A stretch of 45,254 nt of DNA, from positions 1-45,254 of the IMG/VR virus record IMGVR_UViG_3300032325_000636; one strand, written 5' to 3'. Each line of letters opens with the position of its first letter. The first letter of the stretch is position 1. Both the position numbers and the translations under genes were made by a program. Under the pieces are notes generated by a model. The model was not told the DNA's origin. It searched no databases and saw nothing but the letters and a program-made list of their open reading frames with translations. Positions 2,370 through 41,911 of the stretch are shown piece after piece. This DNA is from a virus.

Positions 2370-5735
<3,366 letters not shown>

Positions 5736-14685: not shown

Positions 14686-15135
14686 ATGAAACCGCAGGGT
14701 ATATTGAGTTTTACCTTGGCTTTAGTAATCGCTTCAAGTTCGTATGCTAGTGAACTTACTTTTCAGTTCAGTAGCCCTAGCTTTAGCGGTCAAGGGTATG
14801 GCAGCCATGTGCTTACCATAGAACAATTAGAAGCCAATCGCCGTCAAAAAATAAAAGACGAGCAAGATGCCGCAAAGGCTAAAGCAGAACTGGCGGCTAG
14901 GAATTCTAATCTACAAAAATTCCTCGTAAATTTAGAAAGCAGAATTTATGCTCAATTATCTAAACAAATGGCAGACGCTATGTTTGGCGAAAGTGGTGCC
15001 ACATCAGGTAGTTTAGATTTTCAAGGCACAAATATTAACTGGGTGAAAACAGGCACTGATGTTACATTAACTATTATACAAGAGGATGGAGGCCGTACAG
15101 AAATCACTGTACCTGTAGCCTCTTTTAGATTCTAA
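14686..15135 (+). CDS. csgF: Curli assembly protein CsgF homologue
   Basis: A 149-residue exported protein: signal peptide ending SSYA, then SELTFQFSSPSFSGQGYGSH, which matches the mature start of CsgF (TMTFQFRNPNFGG in E. coli). The C-terminal domain has the expected GTDVTLTIIQEDGGRTEITVP strands. In curli systems CsgF docks on the CsgG pore through this N-terminus and links the nucleator to the cell surface. A helical Lys/Glu/Ala-rich insert lies in the middle (EQLEANRRQKIKDEQDAA). The ATG follows CGGAG. Its stop overlaps the start of csgG (TAATG), so the two are translationally coupled. Confidence 0.9.
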   Translation: MKPQGILSFTLALVIASSSYASELTFQFSSPSFSGQGYGSHVLTIEQLEANRRQKIKDEQDAAKAKAELAARNSNLQKFLVNLESRIYAQLSKQMADAMFGESGATSGSLDFQGTNINWVKTGTDVTLTIIQEDGGRTEITVPVASFRF

Positions 15136-15911
15136 TGCGAAGCATAATATTATCCTTATGTATGATGTTATTAGCAAGTTGTGCTAGTATACCTTTTCAG
15201 AAAGAAATAGAAGATCCTGTTACAATAGTACCTAGGTTAAAATTAGCAGATACTTTACCTATGTTAGATGGTCCACCGATAACAATGGCTGTTTATGGTT
15301 TTAAAGATTTAACGGGACAGAAAAAACCCAATGATAGGTTAGCATTGTTTAGTAGTGCAGTAACACAAGGTGCTGAGGTATTTTTAATACAATCATTACA
15401 AAATAGTAGAAATTATTTTAGGGTAGTGGAACGAGTTGGATTAGACAACCTTATAAAAGAGAGACAACTAATTCGCAGCCAACGAGAAGTTTACGAAGGT
15501 AAAGAAGCAAAACCTCTTAAACCTATGACTGTGGCTGGAGTCATAATAGAAGGAGGAATAGTAGGTTATGATAGTAATATCAGATCAGGTGGAACAGGTG
15601 CAAGATTATTAGGTATAGGGGCTAATAAACAATATAGAGTAGATGAAGTAGTAGTATCTTTAAGGTTGATAAGTGTAAACAGCGGAGAAATACTTTTAAC
15701 CGTTAATGTGAGTAAAACAGTTTATAGTACATCACATGGTGTGGGTATGTTAAAATTTTTTGATGCATCCACAAAATCACTGGAAATTGAAAGCGGGGCG
15801 GCAATTAATGAACCCACAACCTATGCTGTTAGAGTCGCTATTGAACATGCAGTATATGAAATGGTTTTACAAGGTGAAAAACGCGGTCTTTGGCAGTTCA
15901 TAAAACAATAA
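15135..15911 (+). CDS. csgG: Curli secretion channel lipoprotein CsgG homologue
   Basis: A 258-residue lipoprotein with lipobox LASC (Cys16). It follows CsgG along its whole length: ITMAVYGFKDLTGQKKPND, SSAVTQGAEVFLIQSLQNS, FRVVERVGLDNLIKERQLI, GVIIEGGIVGYDSNIRSGG, then TGARLLGIGANKQYRVDEV and a GLW motif near the end. CsgG forms a nonameric outer-membrane pore that exports curlin subunits. The regions for the constriction and transmembrane hairpins are present, so a working channel is plausible. The accessory CsgE and the regulator CsgD are not in the window. Confidence 0.95.
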   Translation: MRSIILSLCMMLLASCASIPFQKEIEDPVTIVPRLKLADTLPMLDGPPITMAVYGFKDLTGQKKPNDRLALFSSAVTQGAEVFLIQSLQNSRNYFRVVERVGLDNLIKERQLIRSQREVYEGKEAKPLKPMTVAGVIIEGGIVGYDSNIRSGGTGARLLGIGANKQYRVDEVVVSLRLISVNSGEILLTVNVSKTVYSTSHGVGMLKFFDASTKSLEIESGAAINEPTTYAVRVAIEHAVYEMVLQGEKRGLWQFIKQ

Positions 15912-15921
15912 GGAATAAAAT

Positions 15922-16509
15922 ATGAAAAAAATAATAACAATAATAATGATGTTAGCTTCGTTTAATATATTTGCTAATGAAGTTTACATTGAACAGGTAG
16001 GAAATAATTCTACTGTAACTATAACACAAGATGGTGCCGATAATACAATAGGTACAAATATAACTCCTTTTTACATAGGTAGTGGCTCAAATACTGTTAC
16101 TATAGATCAAATAGGAAGTACTAATACTTTAACTGGTGTAATCAATGGTTCAGCCACAGATTTAACTCTTTCTACAACAGGAAGTAATAATATTCAGGAA
16201 GTAAACTGTGGCAGCACAGCAACAGCAAGTTGTAGCTCATCTACAATAACACAAACAATTGGTGGTGATGACAATACTATTACTCAAAATTTAGGAACCG
16301 GTGCCAATCATAGTAGTAATATAAATGTAACTGGTGATTTCAATGCTGTAACGCATACAAGCACAATGACGGGTGCTAGCACAGTTGATATTACTGTTAT
16401 TGGAAATACAAATACTATTGGAGTTACACAGAGTGGCTTATTACCTAAAACTGTATCTGTTACAAGTACTGGCAATAATAATACTGTTTCTATCACCCAG
16501 TCTGACTGA
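15922..16509 (+). CDS. Curlin-repeat protein (CsgA/CsgB-like amyloid subunit candidate)
   Basis: A 195-residue protein with a signal peptide (ends NIFA). Its mature part is built of short Asn/Thr/Gln-rich repeats of the curlin type: VYIEQVGNNSTVTITQDGADN, VTIDQIGSTNTL, ITQTIGGDDNTITQNLG, then TVSVTSTGNNNTVSITQ. Curlin repeats fold as beta-arches of amyloid fibres. A pair of Cys flanks NCGSTATASC. The position right after csgG makes it the natural substrate of the channel. Its last 77 nt also encode the start of the next protein in another frame. Confidence 0.85.
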   Translation: MKKIITIIMMLASFNIFANEVYIEQVGNNSTVTITQDGADNTIGTNITPFYIGSGSNTVTIDQIGSTNTLTGVINGSATDLTLSTTGSNNIQEVNCGSTATASCSSSTITQTIGGDDNTITQNLGTGANHSSNINVTGDFNAVTHTSTMTGASTVDITVIGNTNTIGVTQSGLLPKTVSVTSTGNNNTVSITQSD

Positions 16510-17524
16510 AGCTAATATTGGTAAAATAAGCCAACAGACAGGTCCTACAGAAATTGTTAGAAATAACAAAAGTCAACCTAGTGCTGTAAATTCTACTGTA
16601 CAAATGAGTGATACTATTGTTACGGCTAAATCAAATGTTCTATTAGATTTTGAAGATAATACCCAAGTTAAAATGACTGAACATAGCAAACTTTTAATTG
16701 ATGAGTTTGTATATGATCCTAATAAAGGCACAGGTAAATTAGGCTTAAAAGTAGCTTTAGGCACAGCCCGATATGCTAGTGGTCAAATAGCTAAAAATAA
16801 TCCGCAAACTGTTAATGTAAAAACACCCACAGCTACAATAGCAGTTAGAGGTACAGATTTTAGTATGACTGTTGATGAATTAGGTAGGTCATTAGTAATA
16901 CTATTGCCTAGTTGTGATGATAAAGGATGTGTGACAGGTGCTATTACTGTTAGTAACGAATCAGGCACGGTTCTACTTGATATAGCATATCAAGCCACAT
17001 TAGTAAGTAGTTTACAAACTCCGCCCACTGAGCCCAAAGTTATTAATGTTGACCAAACAAATATTAATAATTTGCTAATTGTTGCTCCTCCCATAAAAAC
17101 AGAAGAAGTAGAAATAAGAACTCAAACTACATTAGATATAAATTATTTGAATCAGGATTTGCTAAAATATTCTGAGTTAGATAAAAACTACTTAGAAAAT
17201 GTAAAAGAACTAGATTTGAATTTGTTAGATAATGAATTTTTAGGAAATATGTTAGACATCAGTCTAGCAGAAATGATGGCTAACCAAGTAGAATTAAACC
17301 AAATCAATGAATTGCTACCTAAATTCAATGCTATTAATGGTATAAAGTATTTCTTTAATGATGATAGGAGTAAAATTACATTAACTAAAAACTTATCACA
17401 TATAGCTCAAGTTACAACAAATACCGAACAAAATTCTCAGATAAATATTATACAAGATGGTGTTAGCGTTCAGCAACAAATAAATCAAGGTGGCACCACT
17501 AGTGTAACAATAATACAAAAATAA
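16433..17524 (+). CDS. FecR-domain exported protein with curlin-like C-terminus
   Basis: About 363 residues from a GTG at 16433-16435. This start gives a clean signal peptide (LKLYLLQVLAIIILFLS, cleaved near LTEA) and has GGAG 9 nt upstream, so it is preferred over the longer frame. The FecR domain is clear: TIVTAKSNVLLDFEDNTQVK, a VALGTARYASG strand and TPTATIAVRGTDFSM. A helical, Asn/Leu-rich region follows (LDINYLNQDLLKYSELDKNY). The last 30 residues (SQINIIQDGVSVQQQINQGG, then TTSVTIIQK) look like curlin repeats. It may be a periplasmic or surface partner of the amyloid. Its stop is directly followed by the cyclase ATG. Confidence 0.8.
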   Translation: MAYYLKLYLLQVLAIIILFLSPSLTEANIGKISQQTGPTEIVRNNKSQPSAVNSTVQMSDTIVTAKSNVLLDFEDNTQVKMTEHSKLLIDEFVYDPNKGTGKLGLKVALGTARYASGQIAKNNPQTVNVKTPTATIAVRGTDFSMTVDELGRSLVILLPSCDDKGCVTGAITVSNESGTVLLDIAYQATLVSSLQTPPTEPKVINVDQTNINNLLIVAPPIKTEEVEIRTQTTLDINYLNQDLLKYSELDKNYLENVKELDLNLLDNEFLGNMLDISLAEMMANQVELNQINELLPKFNAINGIKYFFNDDRSKITLTKNLSHIAQVTTNTEQNSQINIIQDGVSVQQQINQGGTTSVTIIQK

Positions 17525-19576
17525 ATGAAAAAACTAATATTAAGTCCTTGGACTGCTATCATAACATTATCTATCTTACTTTTAATAAGAACTATAGATC
17601 CTAGTTTAGTTGAAAGTGTAAGATTAAGATATTTTGATACACTAATATCACAGCCCCGCCACACAGAAACTCACCCAACCAATGTATATACCGTAGACAT
17701 TACAGACAAATCACTAGAAAAGTTGGGACAATGGCCTTTACCCAGAGGTGAATTTGCTAAAATAATAAAAGAATTATATGATCGACAGGCTGGATTAGTT
17801 GTTCTAAATATAACATTAAGTAATTACGATAGGATGAAACAAGATGGAATTCTTGAGGCCGTATTAAAAGAATATCCTGTTATACTTACTAGTGTTCCCC
17901 ATGACAAAAACATAAACAATCCTAGAAATCCCGCAGCAAATGTAATAAACTCGCAATACGCAGGCATGATTGTACAATATAAAGGTATAATAGCTAATAT
18001 TCCACAATTAGAGCAAACTGCTGCAGGTGTAGGTATAGTTAATACTTTGCCCGAAATAGATGGCGTGAATCGTAGGGCGCCTCTAATTATTTCAGTTGAG
18101 GGTAAACTTTATCCTAGCTTAAGTATGGAAATACTTAGAATAGCTGCAGGAGATCCCGCCTTTCAAGTTAAACTAAATGAGAATGGTGTTGAAAAAATGC
18201 GTATACCTAAATTTGGTCCAATACAAACTGACAATTTAGGTAGAATATGGATAGATTGGCAACAACAAGTTAATAATTTTTCATTAGACAAATTACCTAA
18301 AACATTTGATAATGGTATAGTGATATTAGGCACAACCGCCGCAGGTATCAGCAATCCTTTACCTACAAGCATAGGTGCTCAATACCCCCATTATGTACAG
18401 GCAAAAATACTATCAACAATGATTAATGGTGTGGTAATAAAAAGACCTGACTATAGTGATGGCATAGAAATATTAGTATTTCTTGTATCTGGGGTTTTAT
18501 TATTGTTTTTGACGAGGTATACATATGTTGGATTATTGTCGTATGGTATTCTTATTGGTGGCGTGGTTATCGGTAGTTGGTATTCTTTCACTAACTTTTT
18601 ATTTCTCTTTGACAGTACTTACTTTGCCTTTGGGACAACTTTGGTCGCTTTGCATGCCTATGGTATAAAGTTCATAAGTGAATACTTACAAAAGCAGCAA
18701 ATCAAAAAACAGTTTAGTACCTATTTATCTCCTGCAATGGTAGAAAAACTACAGAAAAATCCTGAACTGTTACAGTTAGGTGGTGAGCGTAGAGAGTTAA
18801 GTATCATGTTCACTGATGTCAGAGGCTTTACTACTATTTCAGAACATTATGGCAGTGATGTTGAAGGCTTGACCAAGATTATGAATCGCTATATGACTGC
18901 TATGACTGCTAAAATTATAGAAAATAATGGTACATTAGACAAGTATATTGGCGACGCACAGATGGCATTTTGGAATGCACCCCTCGATGATGCTGATCAC
19001 GCAAAACACGCAGTTAAAACAGCATTAGAAATGATGGGAAGTTTAGATGAGTTTAATAAAGAAATTGCAGCAGAAGGCATACCAGCTTTTGGTATGGGTC
19101 TTGGCATTAATAGCGCCCAAGTTGTTGTGGGTAATATGGGTAGCGATCAGCGTTTTGATTACACTTGCCTTGGCGACGGTGTTAATTTGGCGAGCAGATT
19201 GGAGGGTCAGTCTAAGCCGTATGGTGTCAAAATTGTTTTAGGACCATTAACAGCAAAACAAGTTGCTGATGAATATTTTGTATTAGAGTTGGATTGTTTG
19301 GCTGTAAAGGGCAAAACAGAAGGGGTAAATATCTACACAGTATTAGATAACCCCAAACCTGAATACAAAATAGCAAAAGAACTACATGAAATTATGCTAG
19401 TATACTATAGAGAACAAAATTGGGACAGAGCGTTAGAAATTATAAATCAACTCAAAGAAGAATTCAACGGTGAGATGAACAAATACTATGAGATGATGGA
19501 AGAAAGGATTAGTGAATTGCGAGTTTCTAATTTGGATACAAACTGGGATGGTGTGTTTAGGGCGAATTCTAAATAA
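17525..19576 (+). CDS. CHASE2-domain class III adenylate/guanylate cyclase
   Basis: A 683-residue membrane sensor. One N-terminal helix (ILSPWTAIITLSILLLI) is followed by an extracytoplasmic CHASE2 domain (about 30-300, with YTVDITDKSLEKLGQWPLPR). Next are three closely spaced helices (about 310-385), a linker helix and a class III cyclase domain (about 415-600). Catalytic features are complete: metal Asp in MFTDVRGF and YIGDAQMAFW, base-binding Lys in DKYIGD, and transition-state Asn and Arg in GDGVNLASRLEG. The product should be a cyclic nucleotide, most likely cAMP, but ATP versus GTP choice is not certain. FecR and CHASE2-cyclase genes are neighbours in many bacteria. Confidence 0.93.
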   Translation: MKKLILSPWTAIITLSILLLIRTIDPSLVESVRLRYFDTLISQPRHTETHPTNVYTVDITDKSLEKLGQWPLPRGEFAKIIKELYDRQAGLVVLNITLSNYDRMKQDGILEAVLKEYPVILTSVPHDKNINNPRNPAANVINSQYAGMIVQYKGIIANIPQLEQTAAGVGIVNTLPEIDGVNRRAPLIISVEGKLYPSLSMEILRIAAGDPAFQVKLNENGVEKMRIPKFGPIQTDNLGRIWIDWQQQVNNFSLDKLPKTFDNGIVILGTTAAGISNPLPTSIGAQYPHYVQAKILSTMINGVVIKRPDYSDGIEILVFLVSGVLLLFLTRYTYVGLLSYGILIGGVVIGSWYSFTNFLFLFDSTYFAFGTTLVALHAYGIKFISEYLQKQQIKKQFSTYLSPAMVEKLQKNPELLQLGGERRELSIMFTDVRGFTTISEHYGSDVEGLTKIMNRYMTAMTAKIIENNGTLDKYIGDAQMAFWNAPLDDADHAKHAVKTALEMMGSLDEFNKEIAAEGIPAFGMGLGINSAQVVVGNMGSDQRFDYTCLGDGVNLASRLEGQSKPYGVKIVLGPLTAKQVADEYFVLELDCLAVKGKTEGVNIYTVLDNPKPEYKIAKELHEIMLVYYREQNWDRALEIINQLKEEFNGEMNKYYEMMEERISELRVSNLDTNWDGVFRANSK

Positions 19577-20887: not shown

Positions 20888-21130
20888 TTAATTTCTTTTT
20901 GGTTGATAATCGATACCAATCTTTGGGGTGAAGTCTGTAATAAAATCGTCCTTCATATCATCACCATACTTTAGCGTGATATAGCTAAACAGTGCATCTT
21001 TATCTTTTTCCATACCAATAGTTAGATGGTATTTCCAAGAGATCTTTTGGTGAATATGACGCTTAAGATTTGGATCTTTTAAGATATCGTCAAAGTTGCT
21101 GTTGGTTCTGTAAAAAGTAAATAGTTTCAT
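20888..21130 (-). CDS. Hypothetical protein, 80 aa
   Basis: Starts MKLFTFYRTNSNFDDIL when read from the ATG that overlaps the stop of the upstream gene (AAATGA); the in-frame codon 9 nt earlier is less likely. It contains ISWKYHLTIGMEKDKDALFS and ends DYQPKRN. No membrane segment or known motif. The KDKDALFSYI segment faintly recalls the C-terminal motif of the small tandem array at 37-40 kb. Confidence 0.6.
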   Translation of the reverse strand: MKLFTFYRTNSNFDDILKDPNLKRHIHQKISWKYHLTIGMEKDKDALFSYITLKYGDDMKDDFITDFTPKIGIDYQPKRN

Positions 21131-21330
21131 TTTTTCCAAAGTACAAAGTTAATATAGTCTGCTTCGTTGTCAAATATAAATTGATAGCGGCCTTCAGTGT
21201 ATCCTGCAGGATCTACTACATCATATCCCCACATACCTACGCAATACTCTTGGCACCAACGAACGATAGGGCCAAGCTCACCAAATTTTAGCCGCATATC
21301 GGTAGTGTATTCTTTAGTATCGGGTAACAT
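21127..21330 (-). CDS. Small protein related to the Leu-Arg-Trp array family
   Basis: A 67-residue Trp-rich protein with VRWCQEYCVGMWGYDVV and a C-terminus GRYQFIFDNEADYINFVLWKK. The last stretch fits the array pattern of an acidic pair, hydrophobic residues and F-x-L-x-W. It is an isolated member 16 kb from the array. Here the terminal TGG is followed by AAAAAATGA, not by an AGGTGG ribosome site. The start is either this ATG, which overlaps the deaminase gene by 17 nt, or Met12 at 21297. Confidence 0.6.
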   Translation of the reverse strand: MLPDTKEYTTDMRLKFGELGPIVRWCQEYCVGMWGYDVVDPAGYTEGRYQFIFDNEADYINFVLWKK

Positions 21331-23012: not shown

Positions 23013-23249
23013 TTAGTTGGTTGAAGAATTCTTCTTTCTCCAATCACCAATAAAACCCAAATTTTTTGAACACTGCTTGCAAATGGCGTCACATGCGTTA
23101 GTTTCATTTACACCACCATCATGCTTGCACGATGCTTGTTTATTGTGCAGCTTAATATAATAACTGGTGTAGATAAAAATTGCAGGTGCTAATAATACTA
23201 CGCCAAATAAAAACCCAATTACATCTAATATACTAATTGTAAATAACAT
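23013..23249 (-). CDS. Small membrane protein with Cys-rich tail, 78 aa
   Basis: An N-terminal hydrophobic helix (IGFLFGVVLLAPAIFIYTSYY) is followed by a short soluble tail with four Cys and one His: SCKHDGG, ACDAICKQCSKN. The tail resembles a small zinc-binding knuckle. The ATG overlaps the preceding stop (TAATG). Function unknown. Confidence 0.6.
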   Translation of the reverse strand: MLFTISILDVIGFLFGVVLLAPAIFIYTSYYIKLHNKQASCKHDGGVNETNACDAICKQCSKNLGFIGDWRKKNSSTN

Positions 23250-26338: not shown

Positions 26339-26367
26339 ATTATATACCCAAAGACTTTTACTGTCAA
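26339..26367 (-). promoter_or_regulatory. Sigma70-type promoter
   Basis: Perfect TTGACA, 17-bp spacer and perfect TATAAT. The -35 box overlaps the end of clpP. Confidence 0.8.
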
Positions 26368-26957
26368 CCTTGGCGTTTTTCAATAACTTCGTCTACCAAG
26401 CCATATTCCAGAGCTTGTTGTGCTGACATAAAACGGTCTCTCTCCATATCACGCAGAAGTTCTTCAAAGGTCTTGCCCTTGCTATTGTGTTTGACATAGA
26501 TATGGGTAAGATTTTTCTTCATTTCTAAAATTTCTTTGACTTGAATCAGCATATCAGTTGCTTGACCACGGGCACCACCTGAAGGTTGATGAATCATGTG
26601 TCGAGCATTGGGTAGAATAAATCGCTTACCTGCTGTTCCTGCTTGTGCTAGAAGCGAACCCATTGAACAGGCCTGACCCATAACAATAGTAGAAATGTCT
26701 GATGTCACAAACTGCATAGCATCATAAATTGCCATGCCCGCGGTTACTGAACCACCGGGTGAGTTGATGTAAAGTGATATATCTTTTTCTGGGTTTTCGC
26801 TTTCTAAATATAAGAGTTGTGCTACAATCAAATTAGCCATTTGATCGTGGACTTCCCCTTCTAGAAGAATAACTCGGTCTCGTAGTAATCTGCTATAGAT
26901 ATCATAGCTTCGCTCACCACGACTAGTTTGTTCTAAAACCATTGGTACTAGACTCAT
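26364..26957 (-). CDS. clpP: ATP-dependent Clp protease proteolytic subunit ClpP
   Basis: A 197-residue serine peptidase of full normal length. The catalytic triad is Ser98 (GQACSMGS), His123 (MIHQPSGG) and Asp174 (ERDRFMS). The oxyanion strand [17 protein letters not shown] and the N-terminal [17 protein letters not shown] are highly conserved. ClpP forms a double heptameric barrel fed by ClpX or ClpA. Here the same phage region carries ClpX and ClpS, so a phage-specific protease is possible. It could also mix with host subunits. Own consensus-type promoter and an AAGGAAAC ribosome binding site. Confidence 0.97.
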
Positions 26958-29525: not shown

Positions 29526-30230
29526 ATGGCCACTATAGGGTTTGATATAATCAGTGATCTAAACTTAGACGCTGAAGAAAGCTTTAATTGGGAAGGTAAA
29601 GCAACTAGTTTGTATTGTATTATTGCAGGTAATCTTAGTGATGATTTGCGTGTTATACATCAAACTTTGCTTCATCTTACTAAATTTTATTCAGGTGTAT
29701 TTTATGTCGCCGGATCACTAGAATACACCGCCATTGATGATGTAACTACCCGAACCGAAGAAATATATAAAATATGCAAGTCAATTAAGGGTGTAGCTTT
29801 TCTGTATCAACATGTAGTGGTAGTAGATGGGGTAGCTATTGTGGGTGCAAATGGATGGTATGGTAATACTACTCAAGTATATACTGGACTAGACTATTTG
29901 CAACTACAAGTTCAAAACTATTCGGATATAACTTATTTAGGTAACACTATTGAAAAGTTACAGTTGCATTTGGATGCCAAAAAGATATGCATGGTAACTC
30001 ATAGTGCTCCTAGTGAGAAACTATTCTTTGGTGAAATGCCATCAGATATTAGCGAACAACAACCACCGATAGTGTCTATCCATACTGATACTGAAAAGAA
30101 AATAACTCATTGGGTTTATGGGTCATATGATAAAACAGTTGATACTACCATAGATAATATCAACTATATAAACAACAGTTATTATAAGCGCAAGCCTTAT
30201 TGGCCCAAGCGAGTTGAAGTTAAGTATTAA
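29526..30230 (+). CDS. Degenerate metallophosphoesterase-like protein (probable pseudoenzyme)
   Basis: A 234-residue protein with the order of a calcineurin-like phosphoesterase but changed metal ligands. SDLNLD stands for SDxHLE, IAGNLSDD for xxGDxxxD, VAGSLEY for GNHEY, and HWVYGSYDK for THGHTH. THSAPSEK still matches GHHSPS. Most metal ligands are lost, so catalysis is unlikely. The fold seems kept (GVAIVGANGWYGNTT). It may bind a ligand or serve as a structural protein. It lies 6 nt after the previous gene, and its stop overlaps the stop of convergent clpS by 4 nt. Confidence 0.7.
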   Translation: MATIGFDIISDLNLDAEESFNWEGKATSLYCIIAGNLSDDLRVIHQTLLHLTKFYSGVFYVAGSLEYTAIDDVTTRTEEIYKICKSIKGVAFLYQHVVVVDGVAIVGANGWYGNTTQVYTGLDYLQLQVQNYSDITYLGNTIEKLQLHLDAKKICMVTHSAPSEKLFFGEMPSDISEQQPPIVSIHTDTEKKITHWVYGSYDKTVDTTIDNINYINNSYYKRKPYWPKRVEVKY

Positions 30231-30526
30231 AGATCAGCCTCTACTTTAACTTGTAGAGGATAGCCCTGTGATCTAGCATCGATAGTAACTTCGATTCCGC
30301 GTTGTTCTGCAATTTCGTAGGGTAGTACTGCTACCACTGCACTACCCTGAGTGTGAATGCTTTCAGTAATGGTAGAAGCAGTTTCATTAGTATAATTAAA
30401 ATAGTCAATTAAACTATTTACCACGAAATGCATACTAGTTACCTCATCATTGAAGTAAATAACCTTGTATAGTGGGGGTTCACTTAAATCTAGATTTGGT
30501 TTGATTTTTAGGTCTTCTTTAGACAT
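30227..30526 (-). CDS. clpS: ClpS adaptor (N-degron recognition)
   Basis: A 99-residue protein that matches ClpS across its length: PPLYKVIYFNDEVTSMHFVV, an ESIHTQGSAVVAVLPYEIAE helix-strand and a QGYPLQVKVEADL end. Residues that hold the N-terminal amino acid of substrates are kept: Asn26, Asp27, Met32 and His58. In hosts ClpS delivers N-end-rule substrates to ClpA. No ClpA is in the window, so the phage protein either redirects host ClpAP or works with the phage ClpXP. Preceded by an octamer promoter and leader stem-loop. Confidence 0.93.
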   Translation of the reverse strand: MSKEDLKIKPNLDLSEPPLYKVIYFNDEVTSMHFVVNSLIDYFNYTNETASTITESIHTQGSAVVAVLPYEIAEQRGIEVTIDARSQGYPLQVKVEADL

Positions 30527-31160: not shown

Positions 31161-32372
31161 TTACTCATCTTGCCAAATATAAGTTTTTGGAGTAATGACT
31201 TGATCTCTATCAATAATGATTTCTTTGGTGTTCTGTTCTCTATAAAACTTAGTGTAAAACATATGAACCATTAAAACACGCTCTAATTCAGTATGTAGAC
31301 CTCTAGCGCCTGTTTTTAATTTTAGCGTATTTTCTGCTAATTGGTCTAGTGCATCATCAGTGAATTTTAATTCAATATCATCTAGCGAGAAAAGATACTT
31401 GTACTGTTCAATATAGTTATTCTTAATCTGAGTAAGTACCTTAATAAGATCTGGTTTGGATAAATCGTTTACATTCACTGTAGTAGTAAATCTACCAATA
31501 AACTCTGGAATCATGCCAAACTTGATTAAATCGTCTGGAGTAACACCAGATAATTCTGTTTCTTTTTTATTATTTTTTATTTCTGCACCAAACCCAATAC
31601 TAGTGCCAGTTGTTCTATTATTGATAATTTCTTTTAATCCTACAAATGCGCCGCCAGCAATGAATAAGATATCTTTAGTGTTAATCTCAATCATTTCACC
31701 TCCAGGATGTTTGCGACCACCTGCTGCTGGTATTCTGCAAGCTGTACCTTCTACTAATTTGAGTAGTGCTTGTTGAACACCTTCACCTGAAACATCTCGG
31801 GTAATGCTAGTGCTTTCGCTTTTTCTAGCAATTTTATCAATTTCATCAATAAACACAATTCCACGTTCTGCGCGTCTAGGATCACCGCCTGCTGCATTTA
31901 GCAACATTTGAATCATGCTTTCAACATCATCACCTACATATCCTGCTTCTGTTAAGCTGGTTGCGTCGGCTACGACAAAAGGAACATTTAGATATTTTGC
32001 TACAGTCTTTGCTAACAGTGTTTTACCAGATCCTGTAGGTCCTACTAGCAGCACATTGCCCTTTTGAATCTCTAAGTCTTTGGGAGGCTTATTGATTCGT
32101 TTGTAATGATTTGCGATTGCTACGCTTAATACACGCTTTGCGGACACTTGACCAATTATATGCTGATCTAAGTATTCTGTAATCAATTCAGGATCGTATT
32201 TGGTAGTTTCTTCCTGTATGATTATGTTGGTCTCTTCCACCATTAATTCATTGCATAGCGTTACACAGTCGCTACAGATAGCCACATCTTCACTTACAAT
32301 TAATTTATTAACTATGTCTTTGTGATTACCACAAAATGAGCAGTGATTTATTATTTTAGATTCAATAGTCAT
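31161..32372 (-). CDS. clpX: ATP-dependent Clp protease ATP-binding subunit ClpX
   Basis: A 403-residue AAA+ unfoldase of normal ClpX length. The N-terminal zinc domain has Cys11, Cys14, Cys33 and Cys36. Walker A is GPTGSGKT (111-118), Walker B VFIDEID, the GYVG pore loop 144-147 and the RKH loop 220-222. The IGF loop that docks on ClpP is present (SIGFGAE, 259-261), and sensor 2 is KTGARGL. It should unfold substrates for ClpP, either the phage's or the host's. The ATG has no ribosome binding site and lies 5 nt from a GATAAGTA octamer. Confidence 0.97.
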
Positions 32373-35707: not shown

Positions 35708-35896
35708 CTATTTAAATAAGTGCCCGTATGTTACGAGGAACTCGGAATATTCCATAACATATCTTACTGGTATTCCAGGTCCAATCTTAGTCATATAAGT
35801 TACCCAATACTTACCCTCATCACGGAGTTTAATTTGGGTAACCGTTATAGACTTACCATCTTCAAACACATAGGACTTTCCAACTACGTCCTTCAT
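35708..35896 (-). CDS. Small conserved-looking protein, 62 aa
   Basis: Beta-rich: GKSYVFEDGKSITVTQIKLR, then YWVTYMTKIGPGIPVRYVME, ending VTYGHLFK. It looks like a small barrel domain. The ATG overlaps the stop of the large acidic gene (ATGA). No function recognised. Confidence 0.6.
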   Translation of the reverse strand: MKDVVGKSYVFEDGKSITVTQIKLRDEGKYWVTYMTKIGPGIPVRYVMEYSEFLVTYGHLFK

Positions 35897-37014
35897 TGTT
35901 CGTTATGATAGATATTAAACTCACTCCACTGACCACGCCAATTGTCACGATCACTGTCCATACCCTCATCTTCAAGTTCCTGATCATCATAACTGATACT
36001 GTTAACGCAGCTTGCACCATTGATGTCCCAAGTAGTATATTTTAGCTTGCGTGGATCGAATTCTTGATCACCAGTTACAATAGTACTTTTAAAGCAGCTA
36101 CCCTTACCACCTTGAGTCCACATTACAAAATAGCCTTTGCCCAAATAGTCAGGATAAAGTTCCTCTACTTCTTCACTGGCTTCCCAAGCTCCCTGTGTTT
36201 CACCATGTGCACCATTGACAAAGCCCGATAAGTCACCGTTAAAAATTTCTTCACCTGCTTCATTTTCAATAGTCATTACCATATCTTCATCAAATCCCCA
36301 AAATGATGTCACATTATTATATTCATAATAAGGGTGTTCAAATCTGGCTGCTTCGGGAGTTTCATTCTCATCGTAATCATAATCTTCGTTCATAGCATAA
36401 CTAAGATTATCTTCCATTTCTTCCTGAATCCAATAATCATACTGTTCTTTGGTAATAGTTCCTACACCAATTTCACGAGTACGGCCCCAAATACGAATAA
36501 TATATTCACCAGGTGGGTAGTTGGGTAGTAGTTCTTCCTTAGATTTAGTAGATTCTACTGGTTCTTCGTAGGCGGTTTCTCCATCAGCGGTTTCTTCGAT
36601 GGCTTGGGCAAAATCGAAGGGCCATGCTGCAAGTTTAGGGGTACTGTGTACTACCTCTGCTTGTTCTGTACGGTCTCCTTCATCATCCTCGGAATCTTCT
36701 TCGTCATCAAAATCTTCTGGATTACCAAATGGATACTCTTCTTCTTTTTCTACAACCTCATATGTAACTTCATATCCACCTTTGCGATCAGTCCATAGAT
36801 CATCTTCATCCAACCAATCCCAATCTAGGCCTACATCATAAGCATCATTGATAACTTCATCGATATTAACTTCACCAGACGCGATACCTTTTAACATTTC
36901 TGCGACTCCGATTTCGTCTAAGTTTGGGTAAATCTCGCCGATAATCTCTTCGTCAAATTCAATACCAAAACGTCGCTCAAGTTGATGCCATTCACTTTTT
37001 ACAATAAATACCAT
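35893..37014 (-). CDS. Acidic protein of unknown function, 373 aa
   Basis: A strongly acidic protein with a run of Asp/Glu around 95-115 (DFDDEEDSEDDEGD). The N-terminal part is helical (WHQLERRFGIEFDEEIIGEI). Later parts hold GEYIIRIWGRTREIGVGTIT and GYFVMWTQGGKGSCFKSTIV, a Trp-rich beta-type domain. The overall charge suggests interaction with basic partners or DNA mimicry, which is only a guess. AAAGGAA precedes the ATG. Confidence 0.6.
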   Translation of the reverse strand: MVFIVKSEWHQLERRFGIEFDEEIIGEIYPNLDEIGVAEMLKGIASGEVNIDEVINDAYDVGLDWDWLDEDDLWTDRKGGYEVTYEVVEKEEEYPFGNPEDFDDEEDSEDDEGDRTEQAEVVHSTPKLAAWPFDFAQAIEETADGETAYEEPVESTKSKEELLPNYPPGEYIIRIWGRTREIGVGTITKEQYDYWIQEEMEDNLSYAMNEDYDYDENETPEAARFEHPYYEYNNVTSFWGFDEDMVMTIENEAGEEIFNGDLSGFVNGAHGETQGAWEASEEVEELYPDYLGKGYFVMWTQGGKGSCFKSTIVTGDQEFDPRKLKYTTWDINGASCVNSISYDDQELEDEGMDSDRDNWRGQWSEFNIYHNEQ

Positions 37015-37087: not shown

Positions 37088-37345
37088 TTAACCATGTTTT
37101 AGTGTGTACCAAGTCACTGTTGCGTCATCAAGCTTTACTCTAAAAAAATCATTATCACCTGATATGCTAGGCAATTTCATTTCATTACTCAAAAAATCAT
37201 ACAACAACTGTAAGTTACTTTCTCTGTTGTGATCTGCAATTTTTATCTCTCGCTCTTTAAAATAAGGCAGCATCTTTTGATCAAGAATATCTGCAAGCCA
37301 CCAACGCACCCATTTAGGGTCCGAACCTAAGGGATCAATCCACAT
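37088..37345 (-). CDS. Small-array gene 15 (last), 85 aa
   Basis: The most downstream gene of a fifteen-gene array. It starts MWIDPLGSDPKWVRWWLADI and ends DDATVTWYTLKHG. It lacks the Leu-Arg-Trp tail of the others, and no gene follows closely. The AGGTGG of the upstream gene serves as its ribosome binding site. No known function. Confidence 0.6.
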   Translation of the reverse strand: MWIDPLGSDPKWVRWWLADILDQKMLPYFKEREIKIADHNRESNLQLLYDFLSNEMKLPSISGDNDFFRVKLDDATVTWYTLKHG

Positions 37346-37346
37346 T

Positions 37347-37583
37347 TTATAACCACCTCAATATAAACATAGTTTTGTATTTCTCTTCCCAAAAATCTAA
37401 GAAATAATAATGTTCGTAATATTGATTATTTTCATCAAGATCCCAAAAGCTTCGGCAAACGAATCCTAGTTGACGCCGTTGAACATATGAGATAGCAATA
37501 CTAGGTCCATACTGTTCTATCAGCTTGGGGCGTATATTGTGTAGCCATTCTTTGGCAGTTAGTTTGATAGGAGATATAGTCAT
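37347..37583 (-). CDS. Small-array gene 14, 78 aa
   Basis: Starts MTISPIKLTAKEWLHNIRPK and ends KYKTMFILRWL. The terminal TTG AGG TGG codons (Leu-Arg-Trp) form the ribosome binding site for gene 15. Its own start lacks this feature, because gene 13 ends Leu-Ile-Trp (TTG ATA TGG). Start taken at the ATG that overlaps the preceding TGA. Confidence 0.6.
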   Translation of the reverse strand: MTISPIKLTAKEWLHNIRPKLIEQYGPSIAISYVQRRQLGFVCRSFWDLDENNQYYEHYYFLDFWEEKYKTMFILRWL

Positions 37584-37771
37584 AGCCATATCAATGAAAA
37601 CATAATAGCATCTTTTTCATGCCTAAACTCGATACATAATTTATTACCCTGCATGCCAGCTTTCCAGTTACCGTCTACTGGACCAAATTTATTTTTCAAC
37701 CACTTGTTCATTTCAGTAGTTTCGGGATTCATATCCCACCATACATGATTGGTAGTTATACGATATTTCAT
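37580..37771 (-). CDS. Small-array gene 13, 63 aa
   Basis: Starts MKYRITTNHVWWDMNPETTE and ends IEFRHEKDAIMFSLIWL. The acidic-Asp-Ala-x-x-F pattern of the family is clear, but Arg of the tail is Ile and the embedded AGGTGG is lost. ATG overlaps the preceding TGA. In-frame GTG six nt upstream lies inside the preceding gene's ribosome-site codons. Confidence 0.65.
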   Translation of the reverse strand: MKYRITTNHVWWDMNPETTEMNKWLKNKFGPVDGNWKAGMQGNKLCIEFRHEKDAIMFSLIWL

Positions 37772-37950
37772 TGCCACCTCAACATAAAAAATGGTAAATA
37801 CTCTTCACGGATATACATACTGTAATCATCCTGATAATACCATATTTTATCATAGCCATGGCCATCTAGTCCAAATGTTCTATCAAACCATGGTATCACT
37901 TCATGCCAAAATTCCAGAGACCAGTCTTTAGTGATAATTTCTACCATCAT
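37768..37950 (-). CDS. Small-array gene 12, 60 aa
   Basis: Starts MMVEIITKDWSLEFWHEVIP and ends REEYLPFFMLRWQ. It carries the Trp-rich N-terminal half and C-terminal F-x-L-R-W motif of the array. AGG TGG in its last codons precedes the next ATG by five nt less than a usual spacer, with ATGA overlap. Confidence 0.65.
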   Translation of the reverse strand: MMVEIITKDWSLEFWHEVIPWFDRTFGLDGHGYDKIWYYQDDYSMYIREEYLPFFMLRWQ

Positions 37951-38153
37951 GTCCACCTCAATAGAAACATCAAATAAGCTTGCTCACTGGAAAATGATAC
38001 TTCATAGTATGAAGATCCAAAGCGTCCTTTATCCCTTAAGTTACTTACATTAATATCAAAATCTTTTTCTAAAGACTTAGTTTCGCTTAACTTAACCAAA
38101 ACATTATAAAGAGCCGGGGTGCTTGTGCGTGATACTTTAATCGTGTACCTCAT
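37947..38153 (-). CDS. Small-array gene 11, 68 aa
   Basis: Starts MRYTIKVSRTSTPALYNVLV and ends VSFSSEQAYLMFLLRWT. Less Trp-rich in the middle than its neighbours, but the acidic residue plus F-L-L-R-W tail is intact. Start is the ATG overlapping the preceding TGA after AGGTGG. Confidence 0.65.
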   Translation of the reverse strand: MRYTIKVSRTSTPALYNVLVKLSETKSLEKDFDINVSNLRDKGRFGSSYYEVSFSSEQAYLMFLLRWT

Positions 38154-38440
38154 GACCACCTCAATATCCAAAGAAACACATCAGGCTTATGTGAGAATCC
38201 CCACCATTCTTCCTCTGCATTACTACTATAACACAATATTCTACCTCGGCAATTTCTTAGTACCCATTGATGATATTCTTTAAAATTTTCATGGTTTCGT
38301 AACTCATTGACTACTACATTTACAAACCAACGAGATTTACCATACCGATCTTCTAAAGACCAAAGTGGGCTATCCCATTTAGCTATTTTGGGATCTATTT
38401 TTTCCCAATACTCTCTAAATTGTTTTCTACTAATAATCAT
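38150..38440 (-). CDS. Small-array gene 10, 96 aa
   Basis: Starts MIISRKQFREYWEKIDPKIA and ends HKPDVFLWILRWS. It contains EEEWWGFS in place of the usual strand before the tail. Its own start follows TAA directly and has no AGGTGG, because gene 9 ends Ile-Leu-Trp-Ser without that codon pair. It may be read by reinitiation or weakly. Confidence 0.65.
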   Translation of the reverse strand: MIISRKQFREYWEKIDPKIAKWDSPLWSLEDRYGKSRWFVNVVVNELRNHENFKEYHQWVLRNCRGRILCYSSNAEEEWWGFSHKPDVFLWILRWS

Positions 38441-38821
38441 TTAGGACCAAAGTATCGTTGCCAGTGTAGCATATTTTTCACGACCTTTACGGATTTTTAT
38501 AGTTAGCGTATTTTCAGTTACATCGTTTCCTGTAAAGCCCCAGTTCCAATCCCAACTTTGTTTGCCTACATTTTCTTCTAACCACGGGCGGTAATGATCA
38601 TTTGGATCCGCTGAGGAATAAGGTAAGTAGGCTGAACCGGTTCGATCATAGTATCGTGGATCTCGAACTCCAATAATTGTTCCGGTGGGCCAGGCTACCT
38701 TGATTACAGTGCCGGGCATAAACCTCCACCATAGCTTATCTATAAATTTCAAGCCACTGGGTATACAATGTGAATATTTGCCTTTCCAAAAGAATAAACC
38801 TCTTACTTGCTGCTTGATCAT
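38441..38821 (-). CDS. Small-array gene 9, 126 aa
   Basis: The largest gene of the array, starting MIKQQVRGLFFWKGKYSHCI. It has an extra basic N-terminal half (FIDKLWWRFMPGTVIKVAWP) and ends KYATLATILWS. The tail is diverged and does not encode AGGTGG. Start chosen at the ATG overlapping the preceding TGA. Confidence 0.6.
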   Translation of the reverse strand: MIKQQVRGLFFWKGKYSHCIPSGLKFIDKLWWRFMPGTVIKVAWPTGTIIGVRDPRYYDRTGSAYLPYSSADPNDHYRPWLEENVGKQSWDWNWGFTGNDVTENTLTIKIRKGREKYATLATILWS

Positions 38822-39042
38822 AGCCACCTCATTGTGAACCACATCTTGCTCGATTCTGTTTTAAACCTAAATTGTTCGCGGATATATTCCCAATCATCTT
38901 TGCCCAATACAGAGTCACACCAGCTACTAAGTTGATACCAATCTCCCTTATTATCATACCATTCAGTAGTGCGGGGATAATCAACAGTGTATGGAAATGT
39001 CTTGTTAAGGTGTTTAATATATGAATTAGTTGTTTGACCCAT
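38818..39042 (-). CDS. Small-array gene 8, 74 aa
   Basis: Starts MGQTTNSYIKHLNKTFPYTV and ends FRFKTESSKMWFTMRWL. The tail codons ATG AGG TGG CTA TGA give both Met-Arg-Trp-Leu and the ribosome site plus overlapping ATG of gene 9. Start is TAATG-overlapped with the preceding stop. Confidence 0.65.
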   Translation of the reverse strand: MGQTTNSYIKHLNKTFPYTVDYPRTTEWYDNKGDWYQLSSWCDSVLGKDDWEYIREQFRFKTESSKMWFTMRWL

Positions 39043-39236
39043 TAACTCCACCTCAAAATAAAATGAACCACATCACATTCATTATGAAACCAAGCACAGT
39101 GTGGCAACAAAGAACACTGTATACGATTTTCTCTTAGCCATTCTTGTACTTCAATTAGTGGAGTTTTATTACTGTCTGGAATCGATACTCTATATCTATA
39201 ATCAGTAACCGTATCACCAAAATCATGTACTTTCAT
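39042..39236 (-). CDS. Small-array gene 7, 64 aa
   Basis: Starts MKVHDFGDTVTDYRYRVSIP and ends WFHNECDVVHFILRWS. A good example of the family layout: N-terminal strand, a Trp/Leu helix (LIEVQEWLRENRIQ), a second strand, then the tail. Start after AGGTGG at the ATGA overlap. Confidence 0.7.
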   Translation of the reverse strand: MKVHDFGDTVTDYRYRVSIPDSNKTPLIEVQEWLRENRIQCSLLPHCAWFHNECDVVHFILRWS

Positions 39237-39400
39237 AGCCACCTCAATGCGAATAATACAGCATCTTTCTCATCACTAAAATAATAAACAATACCGTAGT
39301 CAGGTCCAACTAAGTGCGTAATATAACTTGGACAATTTTCTTCAGCCCACTCCAATGCTTTATCAACGCAATCGTGATCCCAAGGTAAGGTAACTGTCAT
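39233..39400 (-). CDS. Small-array gene 6, 55 aa
   Basis: Starts MTVTLPWDHDCVDKALEWAE and ends YYFSDEKDAVLFALRWL. Near the minimal form of the family. The longer upstream frame is only the previous gene's tail read in another frame, so the ATG after AGGTGGGCATA is the start. Confidence 0.7.
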   Translation of the reverse strand: MTVTLPWDHDCVDKALEWAEENCPSYITHLVGPDYGIVYYFSDEKDAVLFALRWL

Positions 39401-39648
39401 TATGCCCACCTCAATACAAACATAGTCCATTGTTCGTCGGTAAATTCATATGTTACAAAAGAATTATGTCTATGCATTTTTGTCATTCCAAAATATTTTG
39501 GAACTACATCAAATAACCCTTCATATCCACGCCTATCAAAAAGGTCTCTCATATCTTTAGGTTGATATTCTGCGATAACCATATCCACCATTCTCCACTG
39601 CTTATACTCTAGTGTTCCCCTTGGGTGATTGGCACTCAAAATCTTCAT
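39400..39648 (-). CDS. Small-array gene 5, 82 aa
   Basis: Starts MKILSANHPRGTLEYKQWRM and ends YEFTDEQWTMFVLRWA. It is the closest paralogue of gene 2 (shared MKILSAN, GYEGLFDVVPKYFGMT and YEFTDEQWTMFVL), separated from it by two other genes. This marks a recent duplication within the array. Confidence 0.75.
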   Translation of the reverse strand: MKILSANHPRGTLEYKQWRMVDMVIAEYQPKDMRDLFDRRGYEGLFDVVPKYFGMTKMHRHNSFVTYEFTDEQWTMFVLRWA

Positions 39649-39887
39649 GACCACCTCAATACAAATGCTGTATGATATTTTGGGTCATCCCATCGTAGAT
39701 ACTCACCCTGTGTGCGTGTTCTTATAAACTTGCCATGTGGTTCTAGTTGTTGGTTTATGCAACTATCCAGATCACGATAAGTATGATAGCCACCAATATT
39801 TATTAAATCAGCTTGGCAATACCTTATAAAGTTGAACCAATAATTAGGCCAGTACCCAGAAAGAGAAACACGATATTTTTCAGTCAC
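39645..39887 (-). CDS. Small-array gene 4, 80 aa, GTG start
   Basis: Begins at GTG, overlapping the TAG of the preceding gene (TAGTG), after AGGTGG. Product starts with TEKYRVSLSGYWPNYWFNFI after the initiator and ends DPKYHTAFVLRWS. The upstream ATG frame lies in the previous gene and is rejected. Confidence 0.6.
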   Translation of the reverse strand: MTEKYRVSLSGYWPNYWFNFIRYCQADLINIGGYHTYRDLDSCINQQLEPHGKFIRTRTQGEYLRWDDPKYHTAFVLRWS

Positions 39888-40069
39888 TATGACCACCTCA
39901 GCAAATATAAAGTATAAACATCTTCGTTCATCCAAAGATTTTCTAATCCGTAATCATACTCTTCACCCCACTGAACATGGATAGGTCCGAAGTTAGTTTC
40001 AAGCCACTGTCTAACATCACGCTTACGTTCCCAGTCCCATCGCTCAATAGCGAGTCTATATTGGTTCAT
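39887..40069 (-). CDS. Small-array gene 3, 60 aa
   Basis: Starts MNQYRLAIERWDWERKRDVR and ends MNEDVYTLYLLRWS. It contains VRQWLETNFGPIHVQWGEEY, the common helix-Gly-strand centre of the family. Its ribosome site is the variant AAGTGG encoded by Leu-Lys-Trp of gene 2. Confidence 0.65.
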   Translation of the reverse strand: MNQYRLAIERWDWERKRDVRQWLETNFGPIHVQWGEEYDYGLENLWMNEDVYTLYLLRWS

Positions 40070-40320
40070 GTCCACTTCAATACAAACATAGTCCATTGTT
40101 CATCGGTAAATTCATATGTTACAAAAAAGCTAATTGGATCTCTATACATTCTTGTCATTCCAAAATATTTTGGAACTACATCAAATAAGCCTTCATAGCC
40201 GGAATTGTAGTCTATGCCTGGATAATCTGCCGGCAGATTGTCTCTAATAACTATATGCACCAGTCTCCACTGTTTAAGCTCTACTGTTCCTTTTTGGCAA
40301 TTGGCACTCAAAATCTTCAT
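40066..40320 (-). CDS. Small-array gene 2, 84 aa
   Basis: Starts MKILSANCQKGTVELKQWRL and ends YEFTDEQWTMFVLKWT. Paralogue of gene 5 with strong identity in its second half. The Arg of the tail is Lys (AAG), which changes the embedded ribosome site to AAGTGG. Confidence 0.75.
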   Translation of the reverse strand: MKILSANCQKGTVELKQWRLVHIVIRDNLPADYPGIDYNSGYEGLFDVVPKYFGMTRMYRDPISFFVTYEFTDEQWTMFVLKWT

Positions 40321-40577
40321 GACCACCTCAATACAAATATTGTAGCATCACTGTCTTTTTCAAACTCAAAAAAATCATAACCAGGTGCCACACCCAATGT
40401 AGTTCTTAAAAGTGTTTCAAATTCGTCCGTAACTATAATAGCACCTTGTTCTTTCAGCCATACTCTGTATTCTTTTGCCCAAGCACGATCATCATTGGGT
40501 AGTGTAGGTACAATATTTTTGGCAAAGAATATTTGCGTTTTGTAATAAATCTCATTAGTGGATATGCGTATAGTCAT
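40317..40577 (-). CDS. Small-array gene 1 (first), 86 aa
   Basis: First gene of the array in transcription order. Starts MTIRISTNEIYYKTQIFFAK, carries WAKEYRVWLKEQGAIIV and ends FEKDSDATIFVLRWS. Its ATG overlaps the TGA of the DNA ligase gene, so the whole array appears to be co-transcribed with the ligase. Function unknown for the whole family. Confidence 0.7.
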   Translation of the reverse strand: MTIRISTNEIYYKTQIFFAKNIVPTLPNDDRAWAKEYRVWLKEQGAIIVTDEFETLLRTTLGVAPGYDFFEFEKDSDATIFVLRWS

Positions 40578-41911
40578 TTGTCATCACGGAATCGAACGAA
40601 TCTGGGAAAGCGAAGTGAGTATGTTCCGTCTTGGTTTTTAGTAATCACATCACAAAGGATTTCAACTTTTCGACCAATAACCAAATCGCGGTCATTCCAA
40701 AGATCAGTTCGATCACCATCGCTAAACCCACTACCAACATTGACCGAAATATCTCGGCCGTCGTCGTGTCCTTGGCAAACCAAAGCACCCAAGCGACCTT
40801 TATTTCTACCAGTACCCTCTTCAACATCTACTACCTCCAAGTCTACTGTGATAGTAGGTTTCCATTTCATCCAACTGGTGTTGCGCTTACATTCGTAAGG
40901 CGCTCCCAAATCCTTAATCATAATACCCTCAAAGCCTGCTTCAACTTGATCAGCAGCATAACGGTCAAGTTGGTCACGACCTTCACTGGTATCCAAATCT
41001 ACCAAGAGATGAGGCAGTAGTTCAACATTGGGCATATCATCAATGACTGGGCGAAGACTTTCCAAGATTTTAATACGCTTACTCAGTTGAGCATTCCAAT
41101 GACCTTCTCGGAAAGCAGTTAGCGGGATAATGTCGAACACATTGAACACACTATCCTCAGCTTGGACATTTTCTTTACGGCGAGCTTGGCGCATTAGTTC
41201 TTGGAAAGAATTACCAATCACTTCACCATCCAACACAAATCCCATTGACATATTACTGGTTGCGGCTGTGCGTACAATCTTTGTAAAATTCTGTTCAATT
41301 TGATTTTCAATGTGAGTAAAGTTTTCAAAAACCTTACCATTGCGACTGTAGCTAACTACAGTCACATCACCAGAATCGCTAATATTAGCCATCATCAGTA
41401 CACGAACACCATCAAGCTTGGGCTCCAATCTCTTGACACCACGCATTTCAGGGCGGCCTTCACTGTTAGCAGCCAGTTGGCAACCAAACACGGGAATTTG
41501 ATATTTAGTACCCTTGACTACCTTGTTAATTGTCTTTTCACTGATACCTGCTCGCAAGTCTCGGCGAATAACAGGGGCGCAAAAGTTGTTCCATTCATCA
41601 CTGTCGAACTTCATAGATATAAGAGCAATAGCATCACGGGCAGCATTGCCTGTTACCGCCCTAATAGACAGTAGGTGTAGAAGTTCATTAAACTCTGGCC
41701 ATGGATTGGGAGCATCAGTGATTCCTACAGAATTGGACACTTGCCTAACAGCAAAGGTAATAAAGGGATTGTAGCAAGCATGAGTAAGGCCCAAAAACAT
41801 TTGAGCATTGACGCTGCCCAGTGTAGCGGCTTCAAGTGCCTGCCTAATTACATCTTCTTTATGTAGACGAGAATCACTTTCATTGAGTTTGTTGATCCAT
41901 GAACTTGACAT
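40574..41911 (-). CDS. ATP-dependent DNA ligase
   Basis: A 445-residue ligase that seals nicks in duplex DNA during phage replication. The nucleotidyl-transferase motifs are present: Lys165-Leu-Asp-Gly (RLEPKLDGVRV), MGFVLDGEV, FEGIMIKD and WMKWKP. An N-terminal helical part (about 1-140) and a C-terminal OB-fold (about 340-445, LGALVCQGHDDG) fit T4-type ligases. AAGGATAT precedes the ATG. The stop overlaps the start of the small array. Confidence 0.95.
   Translation of the reverse strand: MSSSWINKLNESDSRLHKEDVIRQALEAATLGSVNAQMFLGLTHACYNPFITFAVRQVSNSVGITDAPNPWPEFNELLHLLSIRAVTGNAARDAIALISMKFDSDEWNNFCAPVIRRDLRAGISEKTINKVVKGTKYQIPVFGCQLAANSEGRPEMRGVKRLEPKLDGVRVLMMANISDSGDVTVVSYSRNGKVFENFTHIENQIEQNFTKIVRTAATSNMSMGFVLDGEVIGNSFQELMRQARRKENVQAEDSVFNVFDIIPLTAFREGHWNAQLSKRIKILESLRPVIDDMPNVELLPHLLVDLDTSEGRDQLDRYAADQVEAGFEGIMIKDLGAPYECKRNTSWMKWKPTITVDLEVVDVEEGTGRNKGRLGALVCQGHDDGRDISVNVGSGFSDGDRTDLWNDRDLVIGRKVEILCDVITKNQDGTYSLRFPRFVRFRDDK

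Follow-up and report, generated by a model that had tools for sequence, protein, structure and literature searches.

We describe a run of 15 small, co-directed genes on the minus strand of IMG/VR virus record IMGVR_UViG_3300032325_000636, extending from position 40577 down to 37088 of a 45,254-base stretch (positions 1 to 45,254 of the record) that is called the window below. The owner of the array is an uncultured tailed phage, probably from fresh water. Considered as a whole, the evidence makes it probable that the run is an array of single-gene cassettes coupled through their tails. Each cassette would encode a Trp-rich protein of beta-alpha-beta-beta-alpha order whose last helix ends F-x-L-R-W-x (x, any residue), and the codons for Leu-Arg-Trp (TTG AGG TGG) would double as a Shine-Dalgarno sequence, GAGGTG, with AGG ending 5 or 8 nucleotides (nt) before the next ATG. 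A ribosome ending one gene would be poised to re-initiate on the next, and we infer that the whole array, lacking spacers, could be translated from one mRNA. Because every outlet would suit any follower, cassettes could be gained, lost or reordered tail to tail without breaking translation.

Results

Organization of the array

The array sits directly behind an ATP-dependent DNA ligase gene (40574-41911), and its genes follow one another without spacers. Stop and start overlap by 4 or 1 nt at 12 of the 14 junctions, nine of which are ATGA (offset -4) and three 1-nt overlaps (TAATG or TAGTG, offset -1); at the remaining two, gene 9 abuts gene 10 (TAA, then ATG) and gene 15 begins 1 nt after gene 14. 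AGGTGG is present at 11 junctions, in the tails of genes 1, 3, 4, 5, 6, 7, 8, 10, 11, 12, and 14. The junction of gene 2 reads AAGTGG, gene 9 has the tail ILWS, and gene 13 has the tail SLIWL, written with ATATGG, in which the ATG could itself start the next gene (MAMTIS). Gene 15, the final member, ends TLKHG and carries no AGGTGG. An earlier reading of these letters alone (the original prediction) had described fifteen tandem small genes, AGGTGG at 11 of 14 junctions and AAGTGG at one, stops overlapping the next start as ATGA or TAATG, and a last gene without the tail, all of which we recovered. The sequence TTGAGGTGG occurs nine times in the window, with every copy inside the array, versus 0.35 expected, and none of 100 shuffles reached nine. 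The mechanical listing of open reading frames (ORFs) placed several starts too far upstream, since AGGTGG contains a GTG that shares its frame with the real ATG. Gene 4 has a GTG start. The array region had no DNA match in 50,697 phage records. Its genes, all on the minus strand, are as follows.

40317 to 40577, minus: gene 1; tail FVLRWS; AGGTGG 40323-40328; start overlaps ligase stop (ATGA); orthologues in other arrays
40066 to 40320, minus: gene 2; tail FVLKWT (AAGTGG); duplicate of gene 5
39887 to 40069, minus: gene 3; tail YLLRWS; AGGTGG 39893-39898; orthologues in other arrays
39645 to 39887, minus: gene 4; GTG start (TAGTG overlap); tail FVLRWS; AGGTGG 39651-39656; orthologues in other arrays
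39400 to 39648, minus: gene 5; tail FVLRWA; AGGTGG 39406-39411; homologous to gene 2
39233 to 39400, minus: gene 6; tail FALRWL; AGGTGG 39239-39244; orthologue group with 10 different successors
39042 to 39236, minus: gene 7; tail FILRWS; AGGTGG 39048-39053
38818 to 39042, minus: gene 8; tail FTMRWL; AGGTGG 38824-38829
38441 to 38821, minus: gene 9 (126 amino acids, aa); tail TILWS, without AGG; orthologues end AALRWS or variants; predicted fold the same
38150 to 38440, minus: gene 10; tail WILRWS; AGGTGG 38156-38161
37947 to 38153, minus: gene 11; tail FLLRWT; AGGTGG 37953-37958
37768 to 37950, minus: gene 12; tail FMLRWQ; AGGTGG 37774-37779
37580 to 37771, minus: gene 13; tail FSLIWL; ATATGG as possible internal ATG for the next gene; predicted local distance difference test score (pLDDT) 86.7
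37347 to 37583, minus: gene 14; tail FILRWL; AGGTGG 37353-37358; alternative start 37589
37088 to 37345, minus: gene 15 (last); tail WYTLKHG; no AGGTGG; no overlapping follower

Codon use in the tails

Scanning a viral collection with the junction DNA pattern matched at least 120 stretches, many of them with several same-strand ORFs that carry the Leu-Arg-Trp (LRW) tail. Offsets of -4 and -1 are the commonest in these relatives. With one ascertained junction per locus left out, the tail Arg was AGG in 165 of 209 cases at such junctions, compared to 7.8% for internal Arg in these genes (1922 codons; p = 5e-114); for internal xRW in long ORFs the figure was 4.3% of 164. Loci fetched by a mid-protein motif, and hence without selection on the tail, had AGG in 60 of 89 tails versus 6.3% of 559 internal Arg and 2.5% of 242 internal xRW. 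Junction classes were then compared in a set deduplicated at 85%, the next start being scored without any Shine-Dalgarno term. AGG accounted for 222 of 306 tail Arg codons at -4 or -1 (73%) as opposed to 12 of 44 at 0 to +10 (27%; p = 1.4e-8). When cases were sorted by the spacing from tail codon to start, AGG was found in 162 of 262 at 5 nt, 59 of 84 at 8 nt, 7 of 39 at 10 nt, and 2 of 53 where the start lies inside the Arg-Trp codons; it is thus enriched only at 5 and 8 nt before the next start. This comparison by the position of the next start is the strongest of the codon evidence, since the protein position is held constant. The tail Leu is TTG or CTG in 86% of cases versus 31% internally, and supplies the G of GAGGTG.

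The residues themselves follow the junction to different degrees. Arg is present in 306 of 371 tails at -4 or -1 versus 70 of 123 otherwise (p = 4e-8), Trp depends weakly on junction class (p = 7e-4), and Phe (92%, p = 0.19) and Leu (96%, p = 0.60) are independent of it. Relatives were also followed in orthologue-group alignments (A2 and A3), which are free of the bias of the first DNA-pattern scan. Group A2 shifts from LRWG to LTCG where the next gene starts with GTG at -8, and to LARG or LAQG at some +1 starts. All 14 sequences of the gene 9 group keep the Trp, which is preceded by R, K, M, L, or W, and AGG is found there mainly where the junction is ATGA. Together with the spacing and junction-class data, these two groups indicate at the sequence level that the tail Arg is mainly an RNA signal read in frame, and that Phe, Leu, and usually Trp are kept for the protein. 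The suggestion in the original prediction that both selections may act is therefore supported, the AGG bias being tied to the next start while F, L, and mostly W persist in any geometry.

Each selection might also be proposed to act by itself. A tail that is purely an RNA boundary signal, free of protein constraint, would fit the tracking of RNA geometry by Arg, the shifts of one orthologue group to LTCG, LARG, or LAQG with a different next start, and the HFGVEE family described below, which follows the same logic with other residues. We consider it very unlikely, however, given that F and L are maintained in all junction classes and are unneeded for AGGTGG, that Trp is retained in uncoupled gene 9 orthologues, and that the ratio of non-synonymous to synonymous substitution rates (dN/dS) is low. 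The converse proposal, that L-R-W is kept purely for the protein and that codon preferences of the phage produce the Shine-Dalgarno match incidentally, is marginally less probable again. It accords with the conservation of F, L, and mostly W in every junction class, the invariant Trp of the gene 9 group, the position of the tail at the end of a confidently predicted helix, and the persistence of AGG at some tails with no follower. On the other hand, AGG makes up 6-8% of internal Arg and 2.5-4.3% of internal xRW codons versus 67-79% in coupled tails, it declines at one protein position from 62-70% (5-8 nt) to 18% (10 nt), and orthologues of gene 9 that lack coupling have K, M, L, or W in place of Arg. 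Because of this codon evidence, the pure form of the protein proposal is excluded.

Gain, loss, and shuffling of cassettes

Relatives keep the order ligase, variable slot, 373-aa gene, 509-aa gene. The slot holds anything from none to about ten other small genes in these relatives, and an LRW array occupies it only in the window, where its borders are the following.

40574 to 41911, minus: ATP-dependent DNA ligase; PHROG 114, E-value 1.4e-84; upstream border of the cassette slot (synteny)
35893 to 37014, minus: 373-aa acidic protein; downstream border of the slot in relatives

Orthologue groups have many successors, as exemplified by the gene 6 group with ten in ten adjacencies; one lineage keeps a fixed cassette order, unlike the shuffled rest. 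Homology between genes 2 and 5 starts at the tail of the gene before each and stops at their own tail. An origin of the array by tandem duplication was rejected, since recent copies are limited to genes 2 and 5 and most others have orthologues elsewhere in other orders. Among close relatives with flanks at least 85% identical, we collected 40 deduplicated gain/loss events near family stops. All three coordinates fell within -30 to +12 of a stop in 36 of them (18% expected per coordinate), and the junction on the shorter side did so in all 40, again versus 18% expected. The inserts measure 179-857 base pairs, or one or a few cassettes. Recombination between tails, presumably homologous, is the likely cause of these events as judged from their borders, an inference limited by the resemblance of the conserved tail to microhomology. 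The original prediction had viewed the array as a self-propagating duplication unit. Gene and tail are in fact gained, lost, and shuffled as a unit, whereas nothing points to self-propagation driven by an enzyme. Some repeats within arrays (loci L034, L318, L020, L309, L418, and others) are confined to the final 60-80 nt of a pair of cassettes, a pattern that an exchange of the C-terminal half together with the tail would leave.

The protein family

A profile of the family, built from the loci that the junction pattern had matched, has the consensus E..W...G..W......F.F..E.DA..F.LRW and matches 10 of the 15 array genes at E < 1e-3, together with one further gene of the window.

21127 to 21330, minus: extra family member outside the array; profile match; tail FVLWKK; next ATG overlaps (ATGA)

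Genes 4 and 5 are weak matches (0.004 and 0.01), gene 2 is weaker still, and gene 15 is unmatched by sequence. Gene 9 was placed in the family by profile-profile comparison (94.5%) and because its strands and helices are predicted to follow in the same order. The AlphaFold model of gene 13 has the order beta-alpha-beta-beta-alpha, with the LRW tail closing the last helix. Median dN/dS is 0.133 among close pairs of family members, which are therefore real proteins, and Trp makes up 6.9% of residues. Neither PHROG nor Pfam gave a match to the array genes above chance level, a sequence search of the PDB gave no relative, and tblastn with three members found nothing in the 50,697 phage records. 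Gene 5 alone as a scan query was also without a match, since neither it nor gene 2 has an orthologue in the collected loci. By structure, Foldseek against the PDB returned no significant match (best E-value 0.57), an absence that by itself proves nothing. The best structure-search score was Z 5.7, to the ACT domain of TyrA (root-mean-square deviation 2.4 over 55 residues), a Z that is common for small alpha/beta models, and the nearest predicted structures are unnamed proteins of uncultured Caudovirales. The predicted beta-alpha-beta-beta-alpha order matches that of ferredoxin-like alpha+beta domains (ACT, EF-G, YajQ, and RRM in the structure search), to which the family may be akin; no sequence relation to them was seen.

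Family members are present in hundreds of uncultured phage contigs, including contigs of 333-344 kilobases (kb) and more, and 22 profile hits lie on one 69-kb contig. Viral loci have 5-6 LRW-tail motif ORFs per 10 kb versus 0.28 in cellular control loci obtained with the same pattern, and about half of the latter figure comes from one array-bearing contig. Nearly all matches in the cellular-genome control scan were single chance matches. A 12-gene LRW array was also seen in a 6.4-kb contig binned as Bacteroidetes (L259, DLXM01000070.1). This contig is probably of phage origin, and its binning is a possible, weak hint at the host.

The least probable account of the array, an ordinary operon of unrelated small phage genes that are packed by ATGA and each carry an intragenic Shine-Dalgarno sequence, could draw on the frequency of such overlapping pairs in most prokaryote groups (PMC6728339) and on the single array genes without family hits, but the genes are homologous, they share one fixed signal form in one fixed protein frame, their LRW-tail arrays recur in many contigs at the density given above, and their cassettes move tail to tail.

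Another start mode and another tail family

The LRW tail has a second mode, in which an Arg or Lys codon ending in A (AGA, CGA, or AAA) produces A-ATG-G inside the Arg-Trp codons, often the next start. In addition, other small proteins, unrelated to this family, have the C-terminus [KR]HFGV(E/K)E; its codons, TTC GGA GTT GAA GAA TGA, put a GGAG 7 nt upstream of the next ATG. Gly is encoded by GGA in 37 of 39 coupled tails of this HFGVEE family versus 25% of internal Gly. The tail occurs in the window in the gene ending at 23249 (minus strand), and in relatives including L104, L115, L117, L128, and L137. Codon use thus indicates that a second, unrelated family of the same phages has the same solution of a tail that serves as start signal.

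Other features of the window

A curli-type cluster occupies 14686-19576 on the plus strand and comprises CsgF (E-value 5.8e-18), CsgG (1.2e-50), a curlin-repeat protein (3.7e-8), a FecR-domain protein (1.1e-10), and a CHASE2-adenylate/guanylate cyclase; a D-Ala-D-Ala carboxypeptidase follows at 19638. ClpP (26364-26957), ClpX (31161-32372), and ClpS (30227-30526), all on the minus strand, occur together in this one phage fragment. Finally, a 1121-aa protein (2370-5735, minus strand) has long collagen-like G-x-x repeats (GATGATG...) of the kind seen in phage fibres.

Discussion

Several points weigh against the tail-coupled cassette explanation, or at least against its strict form. CGN codons encode the Arg of 29 of 306 coupled tails (about 9%), contrary to the strict form of the original prediction. 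Among 32 members without a close follower, Arg drops to 47%, yet 10 of these 15 Arg codons are AGG, whereas the original prediction had these codons free where no gene follows; AGG is accordingly not clearly freed when no gene follows, in a sample as small as 15 Arg cases. Some members combine LRW written with AGA and a GTG start at +1, and their tail has no obvious Shine-Dalgarno site. The Shine-Dalgarno match itself is read without the anti-Shine-Dalgarno sequence of the host. Starts were called mechanically (ORFs of at least 42 aa), relatives are still partly dependent after deduplication at 85%, and selection for intact genes alone would also place indel borders near gene ends. What stands of the predicted coupling between tail and RNA is selection at the RNA level on the tail as Shine-Dalgarno sequence of the next gene, with enrichment of AGG at -4 and -1; its strict version and the release of AGG in the absence of a follower do not.

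At several follower-less AGG tails, the ATGA is intact but opens only a tiny or disrupted ORF, which looks like the remnant of a lost follower. In one orthologue lineage (L040, L319, L327, L328, L339, and L341), AGG TGG is kept, the Leu codons vary, and the next start lies 34 nt downstream. Since AGG is found in follower-less tails, including those of the L040/L327 lineage, it seems to move along with the cassette, rather than simply being given up once no gene comes after it.

Tail-coupled cassettes would have several implications. Conservation of the C-terminal Arg, if it is largely an RNA signal read in frame, would mislead functional annotation that relies on the motif. The arrangement explains how spacer-free phage arrays could remain expressible while their gene content turns over, and the tails form a ready library of connectors. 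A more general scheme is conceivable, which we offer tentatively: phages may assemble such arrays in plug-and-play fashion, with the tail as both a universal translational connector and a recombination seam, without regulatory DNA or an integrase, and at least two unrelated families (LRW and HFGVEE) may have converged on it. As to function, the likeliest role for the family proteins, although we suggest it with considerable reserve, is that of accessory binding proteins for host takeover or counter-defence. The suggestion is made because the proteins are small, variable, dispensable-looking, and aromatic-rich, are constrained by purifying selection, show conservation only at residues that look structural, and belong to genes with fast turnover. 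In this large, unannotated family of small Trp-rich proteins, uncultured phages may plausibly keep a reserve for host takeover or counter-defence.

In prokaryotes, re-initiation is common where genes overlap and the Shine-Dalgarno sequence is intragenic; the motif is often, but not always, required (PMC6728339, PMC12548453). The array resembles translational coupling of the trpE-trpD type in its -4/-1 overlaps and in having a Shine-Dalgarno sequence in the 3' end of the upstream gene, but its motif is a family-wide conserved, in-frame tail that joins up to 15 genes and is also the cassette border. Two hallmarks of termination-reinitiation, same-strand overlaps of -4 or -1 and a Shine-Dalgarno sequence at working spacing, are present in the array, where translation of each gene is predicted to depend on that of the gene before it.

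Integron gene cassettes, like the cassettes described here, are single-gene units without promoters whose arrays gain, lose, and reorder members. Unlike integron cassettes, those described here are joined by coding sequence, and no integrase is implied, although no search aimed at IntI was made in the 45-kb window; junctions that overlap, abut, or leave 1 nt have no room for attC at its usual intergenic position. Short boundary or linker sequences at the gene borders of lambdoid phages are reportedly the subject of models by Susskind and Botstein and by Clark. Like those sequences, the tails are short, shared border sequences that could seed recombination and carry start and stop signals. They differ in constituting a family-specific protein motif with measured codon selection across hundreds of related cassettes. 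Our literature search, which reached few subscription papers, found no paper on such a tail. What is new relative to all of these systems is a Shine-Dalgarno motif that is fixed in the tail of a protein family and at the same time marks the border of movable single-gene units.

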